Positions 32,294-43,592 of a stretch of 64,000 nt of DNA are shown here, in pieces (the first letter of the stretch is position 1; each line of letters opens with the position of its first letter). The notes under the pieces are model-generated. The model was given only the letters and a program-made list of their open reading frames with translations, ran no database searches and was not told the origin of the DNA. Origin of the DNA: an uncultured Pseudomonadota bacterium (GTDB lineage Bacteria > Myxococcota_A > UBA796 > GCA-2862545); contig CAJXTB010000011.1 in NCBI GenBank assembly GCA_913061235.1, positions 124,001-188,000 on the forward strand. The letters are read 5' to 3'. The translations under genes were made by a program, and so were the position numbers.

Positions 32294-33265
32294 CTATCGT
32301 GGGGCGTTGCCCGTGGCCATTTCAGGGAAGGGGACCTGCCACACGCCGTGCTCGGTGACCCAGCCGGTGATCAGGTCGGCGGGTGTCACGTCGAAGGCTG
32401 GATTGTGGACCGGAACGTTCGCCGCCCAAACCACACCCTTGTGGCCCAGGACCTCGCTAGCGTCGCGTTCTTCGATGGGAATCTCGGCACCGGTTGGGCA
32501 CTCACGGTCCAAGGTCGACGTGGGCATACCTACGTAGACGGGGATCCCGTAGTGCTTGGCTAGGATGGCGAGCTGGAGCGTACCAATCTTGTTGGCGACG
32601 TCTCCATTCGCGGCCACTCGGTCGCATCCCACAATCACCGCGTCGACAACACCGCGAGCCATCAGACTACCGGCGACGCTGTCAGCGACAAGCGTACAGT
32701 CAATTCCGTCTTCGAGTAGCTCATAGGCGGTCAATCGTGCACCTTGCAAGTACGGGCGGGTCTCGCCTACCCACACATGGGTGGGGCCGCGAAGTGCTGC
32801 GGAGCGGGCGATGCCGAGAGCGGTTCCCCAGCCGCCAGTCGCCAAGGTTCCGGTATTGCAGTGGTGGTACAGGTTCGTTGCGCCGTTCAGCGCGTCGGCG
32901 CCGAACTCGCCCATTCGCTTGTTGATGGCAATGTCGTCGTCATGAATGGCGCGTGCTTCGGTTTCCCACTGTTCGGTGGGCGTGGCCAGCATGCGCTCGA
33001 CGCCCCAGCGTAGGTTGACTGCAGTAGGTCTGGACTCAAGCAGAATCTGCGCCGCCCGTTGCAGGTCTTCACCGCTTCGCAACGCCAATACCATGCCGTA
33101 GGCAGCGGTGATCCCAATGGCTGGCGCACCGCGAACAACCATGTCGCGGATGGCGTTGGCTGTGTCTGTTGCGTTCGTACAGTCGACCCACTCCACGACG
33201 GTGGGGAGTACGCGTTGGTCGAGCAAGGACAAGCCTTGGGCATCGAACCGGATGTGTTCAAGCAT
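32294..33265 (-). CDS. mtnA: S-methyl-5-thioribose-1-phosphate isomerase
   Basis: A 323-residue protein of the eIF2B-like MtnA family, which turns methylthioribose-1-phosphate into methylthioribulose-1-phosphate in methionine salvage. Seen: RGAPAIGITAAYG (46-58), HHCNTGTLAT with catalytic Cys136, VGETRPYLQGARLTAYEL (166-183) and GCDRVAANGDVANKIGT with Asp215. Slightly shorter than the usual 340-370. A hairpin stands 20 bp before the start. Confidence 0.93.
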   Translation of the reverse strand: MLEHIRFDAQGLSLLDQRVLPTVVEWVDCTNATDTANAIRDMVVRGAPAIGITAAYGMVLALRSGEDLQRAAQILLESRPTAVNLRWGVERMLATPTEQWETEARAIHDDDIAINKRMGEFGADALNGATNLYHHCNTGTLATGGWGTALGIARSAALRGPTHVWVGETRPYLQGARLTAYELLEDGIDCTLVADSVAGSLMARGVVDAVIVGCDRVAANGDVANKIGTLQLAILAKHYGIPVYVGMPTSTLDRECPTGAEIPIEERDASEVLGHKGVVWAANVPVHNPAFDVTPADLITGWVTEHGVWQVPFPEMATGNAPR

Positions 33266-33285
33266 GATGCCCTCGTTCAGCAGGT

Positions 33286-33326
33286 GACCCCAAAATCAGG
33301 GAATAAGCCCCTGATTGGTCGGGGTC
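33286..33326. promoter_or_regulatory. Hairpin in the mtnA leader
   Basis: An inverted repeat: GACCCC (33286-33291) pairs with GGGGTC (33321-33326), and inside it TCAGGG pairs with CCCTGA around a loop of about seven bases. It lies 20 bp upstream of mtnA on the minus strand and lacks a T-run on either side, so it is more likely a leader structure than a terminator. It does not match a SAM riboswitch I know. Confidence 0.45.
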
Positions 33327-33555
33327 CCGGAGAACCCCCCCCGCGCAACGGCCCACCGCGAAGATGGAGGAGACGCAAGAGCTTTGCCAGTGATACGCCG
33401 GCGAAGGGGGCTGCTCGGGACACCCGAAGGTGTCACACGCTGCATACTATCCATGATCAGTGGGGTGTCTGGCAAGAAACTTGTCACCCCTCGTTTGATC
33501 TGCTGGCTGGGCAGAGAAAAAACTACCGGTTGGCGATCGCACTGTTATGCTTTGG

Positions 33556-33700
33556 GGGTAGCGAGCAAGTCTTGCGTAGACCTTCACTCCCGCCCCCGTG
33601 TGTGGATGCCTTCGGGCGACCATATGAGGAGCATGGTGGGCGGGAGCATGGGTCCGCGGGCTGCATCACTGGTCCAGGAACGAGCACAGCGTTGTCGCTG
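33556..33700 (+). ncRNA. Candidate structured small RNA
   Basis: No coding frame here is convincing, but nested complementary segments form one long structure: AGCGA and CAA (33560-33568) with TTG and TCGCT near 33694-33699; GCG/GACC (33574-33582) with GGTC/CGC (33651-33657); CTCCCGCCC (33587-33595) with GGGCGGGAG (33638-33646); and an apical hairpin GTGTGG/CCATAT capped by GCC-TTCG-GGC. A TATGCT at 33546-33551 could be a -10 box, with no clear -35. The closing stem, large asymmetric bubble and long terminal arm recall 6S RNA in outline, but sequence identity is not shown. The strand is inferred from the -10 box. Confidence 0.4.
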
Positions 33701-33795
33701 CGTCGGTCGCCGCCAGAAGGCGTGCTCCCTCCTTGCTCCTAGCTGTGCTCGCCCCTGACCTCAGCGCTGCGCCCGCGGACTTCGTCCTTGTTGGT
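33697..33795. repeat. Intergenic repeat, copy 1
   Basis: About 97 bp repeated almost exactly at 33831-33930, starting ctgcgtcggtcgccgccaga and running to tgttggt, with only a few mismatches and one 1-bp indel. It contains several short inverted segments and overlaps the end of the candidate RNA. No coding role is seen. Confidence 0.8.
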
Positions 33796-33830
33796 TGGCG
33801 TTGGTTTGGTTTGTGGGGAATCGTTCGAGG

Positions 33831-33930
33831 CCTGCGTCGGTCGCCGCCAGAAGGCGTGCTCCCTCCTTGCTCCTAGCTGTGCCCGCCCCTGACCTCAGCG
33901 CTGCAGCCCGCGGACTGCGTCCGTGTTGGT
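33831..33930. repeat. Intergenic repeat, copy 2
   Basis: Direct repeat of 33697-33795, about 40 bp after the end of copy 1. Same orientation. Differences are single bases such as t/c and one inserted a. Confidence 0.8.
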
Positions 33931-33969
33931 CTGTGAGAACTGGAATTCACGGTTGTGTGGTGACGTTGC

Positions 33970-34015
33970 TTCGTCAGTCGCCGCCAGAAGGCGTGCTCCT
34001 TCCTTGCGCCTTGCC
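33970..34015. repeat. Intergenic repeat, truncated copy 3
   Basis: Shares the first 35-40 bp of copies 1 and 2 (gtcgccgccagaaggcgtgc), then diverges into ccttgcgccttgcc, the same string found in the repeats after dnaK at 63189-63246. It therefore links the two loci as one dispersed family. Confidence 0.65.
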
Positions 34016-34115
34016 CTCCACGCTGGCGCCGTAGGGCGTCTGCTCTGACCTCTGACCTCTGACTTCTGACCTCCAGAACCACCGAGTTCCACGCCCAAAT
34101 CATGCCCCCTGAAAC
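34016..34115. other. Gene-free stretch before pal terminator
   Basis: The 907 bp between mtnA and pal hold no gene I can support. This last part has a short tandem 'tctgacctc/tctgacttc' run (about 34041-34072) and nothing else recognisable. Confidence 0.5.
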
Positions 34116-34153
34116 GAAAACCGGCGCCTCAGACTAGGTCTGAAGCGCCGGTC
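34116..34153 (-). terminator. Rho-independent terminator of pal
   Basis: On the minus strand the stem GACCGGCGCTTCAGAC pairs with GTCTGAGGCGCCGGT around a 3-4 base loop and is followed by TTTTCGTTT. It lies about 20 bp after the pal stop codon. Confidence 0.9.
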
Positions 34154-34172
34154 TTGACTCACAGGCGGCTGG

Positions 34173-34709
34173 CTATTCTGGGACGGAGCCGGCGACGCCT
34201 GCCTGGGGAACGATGACGCGGAACTCGGCGCGGCGGTTTGCCGAGAATGCGGACTCGGTGTGGCCCATGACGGCTGGGCGCTCTTCGCCAAAGGAGACGG
34301 TGCTCAGCTGGCTGGCGGCGACGCTCTGAGCTTGCAGGTAGCGGCTGACCGAAGTGGCGCGGCGTTGGCCGAGTGCCAGGTTGTAGTCAGTGGTGCCTTG
34401 CTCGTCAGCGTGGCCCTGGATTTCAACGACCAGAGTTGGGAAGCGGGTCAGGATGCCGGCGTTGGCCATGAGAGCGGCCTTGGAGTCTTCGTTCAGCTCG
34501 TCGCTGTTCAGCTCGAAGTTGACGCGGGCGAAGTTGGCGGTGAGCTGGGTAGCTGCGTCCATGCGCTCGGCTTGGGTCGGTGCCGGACGAACGGTCGCCA
34601 TGGTGTTTGTGGAGTCGATGTCCAGGTCTCCGGCCACCACGGGTGCTTTTTTCTTGCAGCCGGTCAGGACGAGGGAAGAGACGAGAACGAGAGTTGCAAT
34701 GCGATTCAT
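34173..34709 (-). CDS. pal: Peptidoglycan-associated lipoprotein Pal
   Basis: A 178-residue lipoprotein (MNRIATLVLVSSLVLTGC, lipobox LTGC) with an OmpA-like peptidoglycan-binding domain: VNFELNSDELNEDSKAAL, VEIQGHADEQGTTDYNLALG, QRRATSVSRYL and a final NRRAEFRVIV. The Asp and Arg that hold diaminopimelate are in these blocks. It tethers the outer membrane to the cell wall as part of Tol-Pal, although no tol genes adjoin it. A GAGG lies before ATG 34709. A sigma-54-like promoter and a clear terminator flank it. Confidence 0.9.
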   Translation of the reverse strand: MNRIATLVLVSSLVLTGCKKKAPVVAGDLDIDSTNTMATVRPAPTQAERMDAATQLTANFARVNFELNSDELNEDSKAALMANAGILTRFPTLVVEIQGHADEQGTTDYNLALGQRRATSVSRYLQAQSVAASQLSTVSFGEERPAVMGHTESAFSANRRAEFRVIVPQAGVAGSVPE

Positions 34710-34763
34710 GATGACCTCTAGGCCTCTTGGGCCGATGTCGGATGATCCGAACGAGCGGCATTT

Positions 34764-34779
34764 AGCATGAAGCGTGCCA
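34764..34779 (-). promoter_or_regulatory. Sigma-54-like -24/-12 promoter upstream of pal
   Basis: On the minus strand the bases read TGGCACGCTTCATGCT, matching the -24 TGGCAC and the -12 GC at the correct spacing (consensus TGGCACN5TTGCW, one mismatch). It lies 55 bp before the pal start. No enhancer site could be identified. Confidence 0.4.
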
Positions 34780-35050
34780 AGTTCTTTCACTCATTCTAGG
34801 ATTACTGAAAACGTTGTTGCAATCAATCTTACGGAAGACCCTTACTCGGGTGCTGCATAGGCAGAGGTGGGACATTTTGCCCCGGTTGGGGAACTTTGCC
34901 CCACCCAGATTGGGGCATGCCTACCCAATGCTGAGGCTGAACCCCATTCGCAGGTCGTTCCAGCCATGCATCGGTGACCCTAGGCCTCTGGGAAGTCGAG
35001 CAAGCCGAATCCAGGTTGGTCGGATGGGTACAAGCAACCATCTCGACCCG

Positions 35051-35258: not shown

Positions 35259-36899
35259 TTACTGAGCTGCTGGGTCAGGGGCGGTCTCAACGGGTTGCTT
35301 TTGACGGTTCAACCACGGACCTGCGGCCAGAGACACGCCGAGCCCAATCAGGCACAGCCATGTGAACCAGTCGCCAAAGCGCTTGTATGGTGTGTCGAAG
35401 GCCTTCAGCGGCACGTTCACGACGGACTCGTCGGCAACAAATGGCGCGACTTCGTGGATGATGTCGCCGTTGGGAAGCACCACCATGGACACGCCCGTGA
35501 AGGCAGTCCGAACAAGCGGGATCCCCAGCTCCATTGCGCGACCCGTCGCCAGCATTGCGTGAAGCTGCGGGCCCGGCTCGCTGAACCATGCGTCGTTTGT
35601 GGGATTGAGCATCAGGTTGGCACCGGCGTACTGGCGCCCGAGGTACGGGATGATGGCTTCGTAGCAAATCGGAGTTGCGAGCGTCGCAAACTCTGATGAG
35701 ATGGTATTGACCTCGGTTCCCGCCCGGAAGTCGCCTGGACCCTTGATCCATGTGCGCAAGATGGGGAAGGTGCTGGCGAGGGGGAGATATTCGCCGAACG
35801 GCAGGGGGACGACCTTGTCATATCGCCCACGAATCTCACCATCTCGACCGAATAGGTACACCGAGTTGTAGCTCTCACCCCAGTAGTTGCCGGGCTCTCG
35901 ACCAATCAGCTCGTGCTCTTTGGGGTCGCGCTCGCGGTGAGCCGCCCACTCTTCATCGGTGACGGGGTAGTCCCGTCGAATGGTGGTTCCGCCGCCGAGC
36001 AACAGCTCGAATCCGCCATTGATGGCCAGTTGACTCAGGATGGTGTTGGTACGTCCTTCGTGAACGTTGCGCGGGCTGCTGCCCTCCGACCAGACCACGA
36101 GGTCAATGCCGCCTGGGTTGGCTTCGGTCAGACGTTGGGTTGCTTCGATCCAGTCCCGAATCATGGCTGCTCGGGACTCGGTGAAGCGATGGAGCATGGT
36201 CTTGTCGGTCTGCACCATGCCGACTCGGACCACGTCTGCTTGCTCGAGTTGGTACGAAATGGAGCCGTAGCGCCAGGCGCCGAAGCCCAGTGTGAGCACT
36301 ACGGCGGCAGCCGCACTTCCGAGCCACGGGTAGGGTGGGGGCTTGCCTTCTGCGCGCCTAAACGCGGTCTCCGCCAGCGTTGCATTGACGAAGAACAGCA
36401 GGAACGTGATGCCTGCAATGCCGGTGACTGAGCCGAGCTGCCACACCCAATCGGTGCGGTACTGGCTGACTCCGTGGTTGTACGGAAACAGGAACAACAG
36501 CATCTGGGCGTATTCGAGCACGACCTGAAGGGCTGGAATCGCGAGCATCCAGCCTGCCCCGAGGCGTCGGCGTAGCGGGTGCACGCTCGTCCACAAGATG
36601 AGCCAAGGCAGACCAAAGACCATCGAGAAGAGCAGTGTTGCAATCCAGGCCAAGGCTGGGTTGAGGTTGCTGAACGTCATGATGGTCGTGGCGAGCCAGC
36701 GGAAGATAATGAGCGTGCTGATCGTGCCATAGGTAAAGGCCAACCAGCGGTTGCTACGGGGCGTGTCCGCCCGCATCACCCACATCATGGGAGCCAGAGC
36801 AACCCAGTGCAGCCAGTGCAGGTTGACCGGTGGCGCAATGACCGACAGGCTCGCTGCAGCGAGGACTGTGATGACAATTCGGATGAGCAACTGGGGCAT
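35259..36899 (-). CDS. lnt: Apolipoprotein N-acyltransferase
   Basis: A 546-residue inner-membrane enzyme that adds the third acyl chain to lipoproteins. The N-terminal half has about six to seven membrane helices, then a nitrilase-type periplasmic domain with the catalytic triad Glu272 (VVWSEGSS), Lys362 (YDKVVPLPFGEYLP) and Cys412 (TPICYEAII), followed by NPTNDAWF and a final helix. Length fits the family. GAGG lies before the ATG. It is divergent from ppk2, 121 bp away. It will act on the many lipoproteins encoded around it. Confidence 0.93.
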   Translation of the reverse strand: MPQLLIRIVITVLAAASLSVIAPPVNLHWLHWVALAPMMWVMRADTPRSNRWLAFTYGTISTLIIFRWLATTIMTFSNLNPALAWIATLLFSMVFGLPWLILWTSVHPLRRRLGAGWMLAIPALQVVLEYAQMLLFLFPYNHGVSQYRTDWVWQLGSVTGIAGITFLLFFVNATLAETAFRRAEGKPPPYPWLGSAAAAVVLTLGFGAWRYGSISYQLEQADVVRVGMVQTDKTMLHRFTESRAAMIRDWIEATQRLTEANPGGIDLVVWSEGSSPRNVHEGRTNTILSQLAINGGFELLLGGGTTIRRDYPVTDEEWAAHRERDPKEHELIGREPGNYWGESYNSVYLFGRDGEIRGRYDKVVPLPFGEYLPLASTFPILRTWIKGPGDFRAGTEVNTISSEFATLATPICYEAIIPYLGRQYAGANLMLNPTNDAWFSEPGPQLHAMLATGRAMELGIPLVRTAFTGVSMVVLPNGDIIHEVAPFVADESVVNVPLKAFDTPYKRFGDWFTWLCLIGLGVSLAAGPWLNRQKQPVETAPDPAAQ

Positions 36900-38008: not shown

Positions 38009-38037
38009 TTGACATTCCCCCTTGTTTCGGGTTTTCT
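38009..38037 (+). promoter_or_regulatory. Possible promoter of the PKD protein gene
   Basis: A consensus -35 TTGACA (38009-38014) is followed after 17 bp by TTTTCT (38032-38037), a weak -10. It is 33 bp upstream of the start codon. Support is mainly the perfect -35. Confidence 0.35.
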
Positions 38038-38069
38038 GTACGTTGTCAGACATCGTTCGGGGGAACACA

Positions 38070-41000
38070 ATGACCATTTTTATCGCGCGGCGAGCCGCAT
38101 GGGCTAGCGCTGGCCTACTACTTGTTGCATCCACAGCCGCCGTAGGCGCTGACCGTACTCGGACAGAGAGCTGGAACGGAAGCACGAGTATCGATGGCCA
38201 AGGCTACACGACCGTCGGGACCATCAACATCTCGGCTGGCGAAGTCGGTACAGGTGCCGTTGTGTATTCGGGCTCAATGAGCACACGCTGGCTGAAGACG
38301 GATGGCAGCTGTGGCTCGCCATCTTCGGGCAACTCGTACCACAACGAGACTGGCATTCGGGTAGTTGGACCCGGTGCTACGGTAGAGATGGTCCGTCCAG
38401 GAACCTACTCGGGCGCCGCGAACATTGGTACGGTGACCACAAGCTACGGGTGGACCAATACGAACACCCATGGCGGCACACCATCTAGCGGTACGTTCCG
38501 CCCGAGCTCGGGTGTGTTGCGTGATGCCTTGTTCGGTCGATCTGCAGTGGGGAACTGGACGTTTCAGGGCCGGGACACCGCCGGGGCTGACCCGCTGTGC
38601 TTGTACAACTACACCCTGACCTTGAGCACCACGCTTCCGCCAATTCCTCGGCCTGGTAGCGGCTATACGGTCAACGAAGGCTCGGGTGTGCTTCTCAATG
38701 GCACCGCCTCATCCGACGACGGCTCGATTTCGTTGTACCAGTGGGATTGCGGCCCTGGCGGCTACGCGAGCGGCTCAACGCGCACGTGTACCTACCCCGA
38801 CCAAGGAACCCAGACCGCCACGCTTCTTGTCCGTGACAACCGTGGCATTGAGCGTACGGCCAACGTGTCTGTCTCGGTGCTCAACGTGGCGCCGACCATC
38901 ACCGGCGTGACCGTTCCGAGCTCGGTGAACGAAGGCGTTACCGCGTCTATGAGCGGCACTGCAACCGACCCCGGAGCGGACACCATCAGCTACGCTTGGG
39001 CGTTTGGCGATGGTGCGAGCGCCACGGGAGCCAACACCAGTCATGCGTACGCAGACAATGGTTCTCGAACCGTCACCTTCACCGTGCGTGATGAAGACGG
39101 TGGCGTGCGAACTACGACTCGCTCCGTGAGCGTAGTGAATGTGGCTCCCAGCTTGGTGTCCATCAACACCGGCACCCCCTCGGAAGGACTGTCTGCATCC
39201 ATGAGTGCCGTGGGAAGCGACGTTGCGGCAGACACAGTGTCCTACGCCTGGGCCTTTGGCGATGGAATGAGCGGTACTGGGGCGACCGTTGCTCACACTT
39301 ATGCAGACGAAGGCGTCTACGATTTGGTGCTGACCCTGTCTGACGAAGACGGCGGTGAGACCGAGGTTACGCGCAGCGTCACTGTCGCCGACATCGCACC
39401 CTCCATCAACGCAATCAATGTGACGCCGGCCAACGAGGGCGCGTCCACCGGCTTCGTAGCTTCGGTCCAACAGGCCGCGTCGGATACGGTCACTTACACC
39501 TGGAACTTTGGTGACGGCAGTCCATCGGTGAGCGGTATCGATCTGGCATCACCGTCCCACAGTTACGCCTCTCAAGGTGACTTTACCGCCACGCTCACAG
39601 TCGTGGATGACGATGGTTCGTCCGACGTCAGCGAAGTGACCGTGTCCATCGGCAATGGTCCGCCTGTCATTGCAGAGTTCTTTGCGCCCGACTCGACTGA
39701 GGGAAGCGAAGCTGGTCTGTCTGCTGCGGCGACCGACCCTGGGAACGACCCGTTGACGTACCAATGGGACTTTGGCGATGGCTCAGATGCTGTCTCCGGT
39801 GTGGACCTGACCGAGCCAGGGCACGTCTACCTGGACAATGGCGTGTACACCGTCACTCTGACCGTCACGGATGACGCGGGTGCCTCGGTCACAGCTACTC
39901 GAGAGTCCACCGTTCTCAATGTAGACCCGTCGATTGCTCCACTCGACCCTGCGTCGGGGCTTGAAGGGCAGCAGGTCAATCTTGCGGCCTCTGCGACAGA
40001 CCCCGGAGCAGACGAGCTCACGTACCGCTGGGAGTTCGGAGACGGCTCCTTGCCGCTTGAGGGAGACGCGCTCTCCGCGGTGTCCCACACCTACGCCGAC
40101 AATGGCGAATACACGCTTGTGCTCACGGTCACGGATGATGACGGCGGCAGCACCCAGGCGAACACACAGGTGGTGGTGGACAACGTCAATCCAGCCATCG
40201 CTTCCATTGGGCCTACGACTGCCAGTGAGGGCATGGCGGTTGATCTGACGGTCGTCGCGAGCGACGTGCCCGCTGACCCGCTTACCTACACCTGGGACTT
40301 CGGTGATGCGTCGCCACCGGTCAATGGCGGAGCGACCGTTGGGCACACCTGGGCCAATGATGGCGTGTACACCGTGACCGTCACCGCAAGGGATGACGAC
40401 GGAGGCAGCACTACGAGCACGGTGGACGTCACCGTTGGCAACCAAGAGCCGGTCATTGGTTCGGTCACAGGCGGTTCCACTGCTGAGGGGCAGTCGTTTA
40501 CGGTCTCTGCTGAGGTCACCGATGCGGGAGCGGACACCCTGATCTACACCTGGAACTTCGGAGATGGCTCGCCGACTCTGGTCGGTGCAGACCTCGCCTC
40601 TGTGGACCATGTGTGGCCAGACAATGGCGAGTATGTGCTCAGCCTTGAGGTGAGCGACGGCCAAGCAACGGTCTCGGGCCAAGACAATGTGGTGGTCTCG
40701 AACGTAGACCCACTCATTGACGGCGTAGACGTGGATGCCGGTGCAGAGGGGCAGGCGACGACATTCACCGCCACGGCTTCGGACGTGCCTGCGGACACGC
40801 TGACCTACACCTGGGACTTCGGTGACGGCTCCCAACCGGTATCTGTCGAGGGAGACTCTGTAGTTGAGCACATCTTCTCGGGTAGCGGAGACTTCGAAGT
40901 GACCCTCGTCGTCACAGATGATGATGGTGGAAGCAGCTCCACGACCGTTGACGTCACCATCGCTAACGGTGCTCCAACAATCGCGATGCTCGTCGCACCC

Positions 41001-43592
41001 AATGGAGACGAAGGCGCCGAGCTGGTGCTTAGCGCTCTTGCGTTGGACGGTAGCGACGACACGCTGACCTATGAGTGGGACTTCGGTGATGGCAGTGACG
41101 TCATCAGCGACGTTGACCTTGTTGAGGTCACCCACACCTACGCAGACAACGATGTCTACACGGTCACCTTGACCGTGAGCGATGCTGACGGTGAGTCGGT
41201 CAGCGAGATGGTTGAGGTCACCATTGCCAACGTGGCCCCGGAGATCACCTCGCTCACCGGCGACTTGTCGCTCGACGAGGCCTCTGTGGGAGATTGGGCC
41301 GCACTTGCGACCGACCCCGGTGCTGACACACTGACCTACTCTTGGAGTTTGGGAGATGGCTCCGACCCACAAGAAGGGGTGGACCTGACGGACATCTCTG
41401 CGGCGTACGCAGATGATGAGACCTACACCTTGACCCTGACCGTCTCGGATGAAGACGGAGGCTCGACAGAGGCTTCGTTGACCGTAGTTGTGGACGCAGT
41501 GGCTCCTGTCATCGAGAGCTTGGCCGACTTGCCAGTCATCGACGAAGGCTCGCCTATCGCCTTGTCTGGGTCTGCCTCCGAGGTCACGGGTGCGACACTC
41601 GAGTGGGTGTGGACCTTTGGCGACGGCTCGTTCGCACAGCAAGGACCGGACCTGAACTCCGTCGACCACACCTACGGAGACGAAGGTACCTACGTCGTCA
41701 GCGTCACGGTGACGGACGACGATGACCTGACGGATTCCACCGGAATTGAGATTGTGGTGGTCAATGTGGCGCCTAGTCTCGACGGCAACACGCCTGTCGT
41801 GGCTGCTTTTGAAGGGCAGGACATCGACTTCCAGCCCACGGTGCTCGAACCCGGTGACGACGTTCTGACGTGGGTACTTCTCGACGGACCTGAAGGCGCG
41901 ACCGTCGACCCCGAAACGGGCTTGGTGTCCTGGACGCCAACCTACGAACAGTCGCTCGAAGGCTCGGCTGACTTCTCCATTGGCGTGGACGATGGCGACG
42001 GCGGGTCGGACCAGCTCGACTGGACTGTCACGGTGTTCTTCGCGGACACAGACGAAGATGGCCTGGCCGATGAGTGGGAAATCGAAAACGGCTTCGACCC
42101 GGACGACCCCAGCGATGGCTTGCTCGACCCCGACGAAGACGGGCGCTCCAACGTACTGGAGTTCCAGACCGACACGGACCCGAATGTCTACAACGGACCG
42201 GGCATGCCGGAGCCAGTGTCGCCGCGTGACGGAGAGACAGCGCCGGACAGTCGTCCGAACCTCAGCTGGACGGACGCTGAGCATCCACTCGGTGAAGTCG
42301 TCATCTACGAAGCAGAGGTGTACGCAGATGCACTGCTGACCGACCTCATCACTGTGGTGACGTCACAAGAAGACGCTCTCCAGGGGCGTGTCAGCGACGT
42401 GCTCCCAGAGAACTCGGTCGTGTTCTGGCGAGTGCGCGGAGCCGACGCGTATGTGTCTGGTGATTGGTCCTTTGTCACCGACTTCTTCGTAGATGGTGCC
42501 TCCGAACCACCTCCCACACCTGAACCGACATTCCCGATTGATGGCGAGTGGCTCACCACGCGGCCAGCGACCTTCCAGTGGAATGAGTCGGTCGACCCTG
42601 ACCGTGATGTGGTGGTGTACGACGTTGAGGTGTTCGACCTCGATGACGCGCTTGTGGCCAGCGTTGTGGGTGTCGAGGACTTGACCTGGCAGAGCGACGT
42701 CGCTCTCGGTGAGGACACCGAGTACACGTGGTCGGTTCGTGCCATCGATGACGACGGAGAGATGAGCGAGTGGTCGCTGCCGGAGCCGTTCTTCTACAGC
42801 ACATCGGACCTGGCACCCGAGGGATTGGCGTGGACCTACCCCGTCGATTTTGCGCAGGTCACCACCGCGTCGCCCACGCTGACCCTTTCCCAGGCCACGG
42901 ACCCTGAGCGCACGGAGGTCATGACGACCATCGAGCTCGACACGGTACCCACCTACGATTCAGGGAGTGGCTGGGCGACTGTGCTGCCGAACTCTGAAGG
43001 TGCAGAACTGACTTGGGACCTGGCTGCTGACGGAATCGAGATTCCGGAACGCACGCTGATCTACGCACGCGCCCAAGCGGTGGATGAGAGTGACATTGCC
43101 TCGCCGTGGGTTGAGACCACCCTTCGGCTGGGTGGCGCAGATGTGGCCCCGACTGTGCCCGAGCTTGTGTCGCCCGCCGCTGAGACAATATTCGAGGCCG
43201 CCGAGACGGTGACCTTCGTGCTCGGCAACAGCACCGACGCAGACGGCGATGCCATCACCTATACGCTTGTTGTGGCGTCCGATGCGGAGCTGACCGACCT
43301 GTTGGTCTCCGAGCCGGACCTCGCAGAGACGCCAGAGGGGACCGTGAGCGTTGACGTCGACGTCAGCTCGCTACCGCTGGGTGCACTGTACTGGAGTGCT
43401 GAAGCCACGGATTCGACTGGGCTGTCGTCCGGATTTGCCGTGTCGCAAGCGTTGGTTCTGTCGGACTCTTCTGCCGAGTTTACCGGTGGCGCCTGTGGGT
43501 GTAGCGCCGCGCCATCGGGGTCAGCCGCGTGGCTGCTGGCTCCACTGGCACTGCTCGGTCTACGCCGTCGTCGTCAGCAGGTTCTGAAGTAG
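38070..43592 (+). CDS. Giant PKD-domain surface protein with MYXO-CTERM-like tail
   Basis: An 1840-residue exported protein. Signal peptide to about residue 30; an N-terminal beta-sandwich (WNGSTSIDGQG... GNWTFQGRDTAG) of proprotein-convertase-P-domain style; twelve PKD domains, most with W-x-FGDG and xVTVxN linkers; a He_PIG/cadherin-like Ig domain (PETGLVSWTPTY); a Ca-binding thrombospondin-type-3-like segment (DTDEDGLADEWE, DPDEDGRSNV); three or four fibronectin-like domains; and a C-terminal GACGCSAAPSGSA, hydrophobic helix and RRRR. That tail matches the MYXO-CTERM sorting signal of myxobacterial surface proteins. Probable adhesin or matrix protein. GGGGGA lies before ATG 38070. Confidence 0.9.
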   Translation: MTIFIARRAAWASAGLLLVASTAAVGADRTRTESWNGSTSIDGQGYTTVGTINISAGEVGTGAVVYSGSMSTRWLKTDGSCGSPSSGNSYHNETGIRVVGPGATVEMVRPGTYSGAANIGTVTTSYGWTNTNTHGGTPSSGTFRPSSGVLRDALFGRSAVGNWTFQGRDTAGADPLCLYNYTLTLSTTLPPIPRPGSGYTVNEGSGVLLNGTASSDDGSISLYQWDCGPGGYASGSTRTCTYPDQGTQTATLLVRDNRGIERTANVSVSVLNVAPTITGVTVPSSVNEGVTASMSGTATDPGADTISYAWAFGDGASATGANTSHAYADNGSRTVTFTVRDEDGGVRTTTRSVSVVNVAPSLVSINTGTPSEGLSASMSAVGSDVAADTVSYAWAFGDGMSGTGATVAHTYADEGVYDLVLTLSDEDGGETEVTRSVTVADIAPSINAINVTPANEGASTGFVASVQQAASDTVTYTWNFGDGSPSVSGIDLASPSHSYASQGDFTATLTVVDDDGSSDVSEVTVSIGNGPPVIAEFFAPDSTEGSEAGLSAAATDPGNDPLTYQWDFGDGSDAVSGVDLTEPGHVYLDNGVYTVTLTVTDDAGASVTATRESTVLNVDPSIAPLDPASGLEGQQVNLAASATDPGADELTYRWEFGDGSLPLEGDALSAVSHTYADNGEYTLVLTVTDDDGGSTQANTQVVVDNVNPAIASIGPTTASEGMAVDLTVVASDVPADPLTYTWDFGDASPPVNGGATVGHTWANDGVYTVTVTARDDDGGSTTSTVDVTVGNQEPVIGSVTGGSTAEGQSFTVSAEVTDAGADTLIYTWNFGDGSPTLVGADLASVDHVWPDNGEYVLSLEVSDGQATVSGQDNVVVSNVDPLIDGVDVDAGAEGQATTFTATASDVPADTLTYTWDFGDGSQPVSVEGDSVVEHIFSGSGDFEVTLVVTDDDGGSSSTTVDVTIANGAPTIAMLVAPNGDEGAELVLSALALDGSDDTLTYEWDFGDGSDVISDVDLVEVTHTYADNDVYTVTLTVSDADGESVSEMVEVTIANVAPEITSLTGDLSLDEASVGDWAALATDPGADTLTYSWSLGDGSDPQEGVDLTDISAAYADDETYTLTLTVSDEDGGSTEASLTVVVDAVAPVIESLADLPVIDEGSPIALSGSASEVTGATLEWVWTFGDGSFAQQGPDLNSVDHTYGDEGTYVVSVTVTDDDDLTDSTGIEIVVVNVAPSLDGNTPVVAAFEGQDIDFQPTVLEPGDDVLTWVLLDGPEGATVDPETGLVSWTPTYEQSLEGSADFSIGVDDGDGGSDQLDWTVTVFFADTDEDGLADEWEIENGFDPDDPSDGLLDPDEDGRSNVLEFQTDTDPNVYNGPGMPEPVSPRDGETAPDSRPNLSWTDAEHPLGEVVIYEAEVYADALLTDLITVVTSQEDALQGRVSDVLPENSVVFWRVRGADAYVSGDWSFVTDFFVDGASEPPPTPEPTFPIDGEWLTTRPATFQWNESVDPDRDVVVYDVEVFDLDDALVASVVGVEDLTWQSDVALGEDTEYTWSVRAIDDDGEMSEWSLPEPFFYSTSDLAPEGLAWTYPVDFAQVTTASPTLTLSQATDPERTEVMTTIELDTVPTYDSGSGWATVLPNSEGAELTWDLAADGIEIPERTLIYARAQAVDESDIASPWVETTLRLGGADVAPTVPELVSPAAETIFEAAETVTFVLGNSTDADGDAITYTLVVASDAELTDLLVSEPDLAETPEGTVSVDVDVSSLPLGALYWSAEATDSTGLSSGFAVSQALVLSDSSAEFTGGACGCSAAPSGSAAWLLAPLALLGLRRRRQQVLK

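Follow-up and report, generated by a model that had tools for sequence, protein, structure and literature searches.

The question raised by this locus is what is encoded in a gene-poor gap of a 64,000-nucleotide stretch of bacterial DNA (the window), where a sequence-only reading had proposed a structured and undescribed small RNA. That proposal is borne out by 16 homologues, strand-specific covariation, promoter-like sites and the lack of an Rfam match. The RNA, here called RNA1, is almost certainly a real structured RNA gene, and it is a new small RNA family linked to a second new family, RNA2, that lies divergently beside it (Table 1). A gene-poor gap can thus contain two structured RNA genes that are missed by current Rfam models.

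Table 1. Features of the RNA1 and RNA2 locus, in positions of the window
Feature	Position	Strand	Basis
mtnA, S-methyl-5-thioribose-1-phosphate isomerase	32294..33265	-	TIGR00512, 387 bits; synteny
RNA2 intrinsic terminator-like hairpin (AAUCAGGG/CCCUGAUU, then UUU)	33292..33316	-	sequence and fold
RNA2, second conserved small RNA, divergent from RNA1 and directed at mtnA	33317..33436	-	covariance model R3, covariation
RNA2 promoter-like site (TTGCCA, 18 nt, GATAGT)	33446..33475	-	promoter scan
RNA1 5' domain, variable hairpin(s) and pyrimidine-rich stretch before the core	33531..33576	+	putative 5' end; weak promoter-like site
RNA1 core, a long hairpin bearing the invariant 7-nt bulge on its 3' side	33577..33654	+	covariance model R2, covariation
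9-bp GC stem, 5' arm	33587..33595	+	pairs with 33638-33646; covariation
Bulge AUGAGGA, followed by G33631 of the invariant U.G pair (together GAGGAG)	33624..33630	+	identical in 15/15; predicted unpaired
lnt, apolipoprotein N-acyltransferase	35259..36899	-	TIGR00546, 219.7 bits; synteny

Much of the fold that had been described can be read directly in the sequence. The 9-bp GC stem is present, and within it lie a second stem (33596-33601 with 33631-33636) and an apical hairpin (33602-33605 with 33620-33623, then cUUCGg with its loop at 33611-33614). The closing stem said to span about 130 nt is not confirmed, being seen in the minimum-energy fold of the window alone and missing from the consensus fold of 15 relatives. 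The apical UUCG-type tetraloop is likewise a feature of the window and not of the relatives, in which the apical loop differs in both length and sequence. A shorter closing pairing is weakly supported overall (Stouffer z of -3.25 over 15 sequences) and is absent in several genomes, including the window's own. The earlier reading made no mention of the asymmetric 7-nt bulge on the 3' side of the hairpin. Its judgment that such stems are unlikely to arise together by chance holds on other grounds than the fold: the plus strand of the flagged region folds at -82.4 kcal/mol (z = -2.38, with 2 of 200 shuffles folding equally well) and the minus strand at z = -1.50, so that folding energy alone gives a modest excess, and it is the homologues and the covariation that make RNA1 more than a chance hairpin. 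The 3' arm of RNA1 is G-rich, and a G-quadruplex was considered there from the sequence alone.

Searching 93 related genomes with blastn brought up seven other members of the same family with matches below 1e-3, in which both hairpin arms are conserved and the apex is variable, and a covariance model (R1) was built from the window sequence and these seven relatives. Among 71 genomes of the class, R1 found one copy each in 15, all of them (the window's genome among them) within the 21 genomes of the window's family, and a search of 377 genomes of the phylum with model R2 returned the same 15 together with a diverged copy in G012 (E 3.4e-4), which is syntenic in that it lies between lnt and mtnA. 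The window's RNA1 scores 73.1 bits under R2 (E 1.2e-14), the window copy being itself part of the model alignment. RNA1 is carried once per genome by 16 of the 21 family members, and the genomes without a match are G001, G003, G006, G015 and G018. No copy was found in the lnt regions read in G003, G015 and G001 or in the mtnA regions of G003 and G015, nor in G018, whose assembly is 81% complete and has a weak lnt match.

Outside the family, R2 matches in G276, G294 and G267 (E 0.0018, 0.019 and 0.048) were rejected as chance, being without the bulge or the long GC arms, and the best E for RNA1 in 40 genomes of other families searched with laxer filters was 0.06. Eight weak matches in six genomes (E 0.06-0.96), the best three without the bulge or the long GC arms, were also taken to be chance, and five pattern matches in other families were missing the complementary arms. 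Under R2, 26 stretches of viral contigs with the RNA1 pattern yielded nothing convincing (best E 0.23), and the plasmids searched held no match. With no convincing match outside it, RNA1 appears to be restricted to one bacterial family, and divergent copies elsewhere may be missed because the phylum search scored 12 candidates per genome under strict filters.

The sequence-only reading had pointed to relatives as the place to look for compensatory changes, and there the core pairings are kept and such changes are present. In a structure-independent MAFFT alignment (A3), pairing holds in 96.5% of cells and two-sided changes occur in 37 cells, a total that 0 of 500 shuffles reached (shuffle mean 12.7); counting instead the pairs that show any two-sided change (8) gives a weak measure, reached by 47 of 500 shuffles. 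Sliding the pairing along A3 abolishes the signal, RNAalifold, run independently, returns the same core, and the model-fitted alignment A5, whose pair counts are fitted to the model as those of A3 are not, agrees with A3 on core covariation. In the 9-bp stem, U-A becomes A-U near the base in 7 of 15 sequences and G-C becomes A-U in 3 of 15, while the pair below the bulge changes from U-A to A-U, G-C or G-U in 7 of 15. No difference is seen among the 15 in the bulge or in the U.G pair that follows it, and the diverged copy in G012 keeps GAGGAG though the remainder of its bulge has changed. Since the U.G pair is invariant and G-U changes occur, RNA1 can be assigned to the plus strand; on the reverse strand, which we rejected, the invariant U.G would become A-C, and the model scores 13.2 bits there versus 73.1.

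Two features by which standalone bacterial small RNAs are judged, a promoter of their own and a conserved secondary structure, were both found for RNA1. A sigma-70-like site lies upstream at p up to 0.05 in 12 of 15 genomes, with a combined p of 4.6e-11 that was obtained with controls that are 105-nt windows of the same loci, partly overlapping each other. The best site has a 17-nt spacer in 13 of 15; it is non-significant in the window (p 0.069) and likewise in G016 and G010, and it is displaced in G004, further upstream than in the others. An intrinsic terminator follows RNA1 in 5 of 15 genomes, and none was found in the window. Just after RNA1 in the window, positions 33698-34041 contain a GC-rich 73-nt repeat in three tandem-like copies at spacings of 134 and 137, with one further partial copy in the genome (G000:C2:77466), and these repeats may have displaced the terminator in the window's genome. 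Within the fetched stretches, mtnA is near RNA1 in 10 of 16 loci, and other genes around it include hutI, tatA, ppk2 and groEL. A scan of genome contigs with the mtnA protein gave 80 further, distant loci, which were left out of the analysis.

The covariance-model search of Rfam that had been put forward as a check recognized no family at either threshold, with no match at the gathering threshold in the whole window and only low-scoring chance matches at E up to 10 in 33250-34200; RNA2 matched no Rfam family either. 6S RNA, whose shape RNA1 had been said to recall, has a two-sided central bubble between long stems. RNA1 is also long, hairpin-like and of similar size, but its consensus fold has a one-sided 7-nt bulge in place of such a bubble, it gave no RF00013 match, and the genome's 6S candidate lies elsewhere, so this part of the reading was abandoned. 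That candidate is the only 6S match in the genome (G000:C8:113409-113595, or L035 1501-1687), and its CCCACCUG segment agrees with that of the RF00013 model; it would escape routine annotation because its score of 42.7 bits is just under the gathering score of 46.4. The bacterial small SRP RNA (RF00169) was rejected as an identity for RNA1, there being no match at the locus and an SRP RNA of the genome at C19 (61.1 bits). A CsrB/RsmZ-type CsrA-binding RNA was rejected as well, as CsrA (PF02599) was detected in 0 of 7 genomes in which controls were detected. The best Hfq match in the window's genome reaches 23.9 bits, below the 27-bit cut-off, and is not a confident Hfq. In the available text of the literature searched, we found no description of RNA1 or RNA2.

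RNA2 was first seen as a motif in the lnt-mtnA gap of G003 and G015, and the same motif was met again ahead of RNA1, both in the window and elsewhere. RNA2 was aligned from 16 family genomes, 14 of them with RNA1 and the other two being G003 and G015. Covariation is seen in its long stem (17 two-sided cells versus 3.5; 0 of 500 shuffles), and the many U-G pairs in that stem assign it to the minus strand. All 16 aligned sequences share the UUGCGUCUCCUCCAU segment unchanged, and an anti-Shine-Dalgarno segment that is nearly invariant, GCGUCUCCUCCAU, is kept also in G001, G022 and G031. The window copy, one of the 16 model sequences, scores 84.2 bits under R3 (E 1.3e-21). A promoter-like site is found at p up to 0.05 in 13 of 16 genomes (combined p 5.5e-15 over 16), and that of the window (p 0.018) is the only site the scan reported there. 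Terminator-like hairpins follow RNA2 in several genomes, which makes an mtnA riboswitch less likely, as does the occurrence of RNA2 without mtnA following it in G005, G010, G013 and G016; the hairpin in the window, 27 nt before the mtnA start, was not listed by the strict terminator scan. RNA2 looks like an anti-Shine-Dalgarno small RNA.

Of the 16 RNA1 loci, 14 have RNA2 alongside, and the search did not find it near RNA1 in the other two, G008 and G017. Applied to 34 loci, R3 detected RNA2 also next to lnt in G001 and in G022 and G031 of family f3, at 53.8-66.7 bits; in all, two families of the order have RNA2, adjoining mtnA or lnt. There is no adjoining RNA1 in G003, G015, G001, G022 and G031. 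In viral contigs, 21 stretches with the RNA2 segment gave weak matches only under R3 (best E 0.006), and these consist mostly of the searched segment itself. Other copies of RNA2 are at L132-L141, L143, L144, L146, L169, L170, L198, L203 and L204.

The GAGGAG of RNA1 and the CUCCUC of RNA2 can form six contiguous Watson-Crick pairs, at about -10 kcal/mol, in 13 of 13 genomes tested; AUG in RNA1 matches CAU in RNA2 if one C is bulged, and both the bulge and the anti-Shine-Dalgarno segment are predicted to be open. This complementarity is suggestive of a functional pairing, and it is a lead and not proof, because such matches arise by chance in 1.9% of random 9-mers and in 8-9% of permuted bulges (p 0.02 to 0.09). 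No compensatory change ties the two RNAs together, since both motifs are invariant, and any Shine-Dalgarno-like purine run would match an anti-Shine-Dalgarno run.

The mechanism we favor, though at somewhat less than an even chance, is that RNA1 antagonizes RNA2 by pairing, with transcription, pairing and sponge function all putative. RNA1 would be a standalone small RNA whose long hairpin presents the purine-rich AUGAGGAG open in a one-sided bulge, and RNA2 would block translation starts through its exposed anti-Shine-Dalgarno-like GCGUCUCCUCCAU. GAGGAG of RNA1, extended by AUG across one bulged C, would then pair with CUCCUC(C)AU of RNA2 and draw RNA2 off its targets in the manner of a sponge. 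In the window, the non-significant RNA1 promoter and the failure to find a terminator speak against such an antagonist, as do the two RNA1 loci searched in which RNA2 was not found and the below-cut-off Hfq match. The presence of RNA2 without RNA1 in some genomes is what one would predict of an RNA1 that depends on RNA2 rather than the other way round, and it fits an antagonist that was added later to an older regulator. More tentative again is the wider proposal of a divergent two-RNA module, in which an order-level anti-Shine-Dalgarno RNA2 would be joined by a later-born, family-specific antagonist, RNA1, acting as a rigid-bulge mimic of a ribosome-binding site without CsrA and perhaps without canonical Hfq.

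The main rival to the antagonist reading is that RNA1 forms the RNA component of a ribonucleoprotein, in which some protein recognizes the bulged GC helix and is titrated or guided by it, much as Tat recognizes the bulge of TAR. Seven of the 15 core-stem pairs never vary, and C-G there never flips to G-C, as apical pairs do; base identity that is fixed in paired positions is more typical of protein recognition, and these pairs, together with the invariant 7-nt bulge and the invariant U.G pair behind it, point to recognition of the helix itself. There is no protein candidate, however. The obvious GGA-binding protein, CsrA, was detected in none of the 7 genomes searched, and the constancy of C-G is also favored by GC-rich genomes; we hold this explanation to be rather unlikely. 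Less likely still would be an action of RNA1 in trans on mRNAs or ribosomes without RNA2, either through the pyrimidine-rich stretch (UCUCCA or similar) or through the Shine-Dalgarno-like bulge. The stretch before the core is pyrimidine-rich in the 15 aligned copies, though its pairing varies, and the bulge, predicted to be open, looks like a ribosome-binding site, but the stretch itself varies (the window has CCUUCA and G016 has CCUUGCA, for example) and is predicted to be paired in several genomes.

The remaining two explanations we regard as much less probable. A cis-regulatory leader, or a regulator of lnt by 3' overlap, is brought to mind by lnt, which in 15 of 16 loci lies no more than 6 kb from RNA1; in many loci it is convergent and close by, and in G016 its end overlaps RNA1. 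The gene directly downstream nevertheless differs among the 16 loci: in many it is lnt in convergent orientation, in G020, G011 and G012 it is mtnA on the same strand, in G008 and G017 it is tal, and in the window an ompA-like gene comes first. As no consistent same-strand gene was found downstream, RNA1 is not taken to be a cis-acting leader or riboswitch, and a role of this kind is very unlikely. Almost negligible is a chance hairpin or a coding sequence in a GC-rich gap. An energy z of only -2.4 and two unconserved reading frames crossing RNA1 would agree with it, but homologues, covariation and syntenic position stand against it, and a coding sequence was rejected since the core length of 73-99 nt varies by non-multiples of three.

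Elements of the proposed antagonism have counterparts in the available text of reports on other bacteria. In Caulobacter, the CrfA sponge masks the anti-Shine-Dalgarno motif of the SisA-D small RNAs and inactivates them, an Hfq-mediated process shown by experiment (PMC12559287). RNA1 would similarly mask the anti-Shine-Dalgarno segment of RNA2, but this case is predicted only, the RNAs are unrelated in the searches made, and there is no confident Hfq. Rhizobial alpha-r14 or "cuckoo" small RNAs keep an ultraconserved anti-Shine-Dalgarno motif unpaired while their stems vary (PMC10746234); RNA2 too has a conserved anti-Shine-Dalgarno segment, a single one inside a long closing stem, in contrast to three hairpins each with CCUCCUCCC in alpha-r14. 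Campylobacter CJnc190 is antagonized by CJnc180, and the two are overlapping antisense transcripts with extensive complementarity (PMC8687705). There, as in the proposal for RNA1, one of two small RNAs at a locus antagonizes the other, whereas RNA1 and RNA2 are encoded without overlap and have only about 6-9 pairs in common. Like RNA1, which is probably also myxobacterial, Myxococcus Pxr is a lineage-restricted small RNA with several stems; it differs in that it lies beside a two-component system and is reported in Cystobacterineae only (PMC5684412, PMC11928866).

Small RNAs are poorly cataloged outside a few model groups, and the bacteria considered here, which to judge from the MYXO-CTERM domain closing one window protein are probably Myxococcota, have no detectable CsrA, the window's genome also lacking a confident Hfq. 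If the antagonist reading were true, the locus would offer a testable case of a small RNA antagonist arising beside its target.

Two further genes were noted in the window. An OmpA-domain lipoprotein gene (34173-34790, minus strand) lies between RNA1 and lnt and was not found there in the other 15 RNA1 loci, and a plus-strand gene at 38022-43592 encodes a repeat protein of 1856 aa with a MYXO-CTERM sorting domain at its end.
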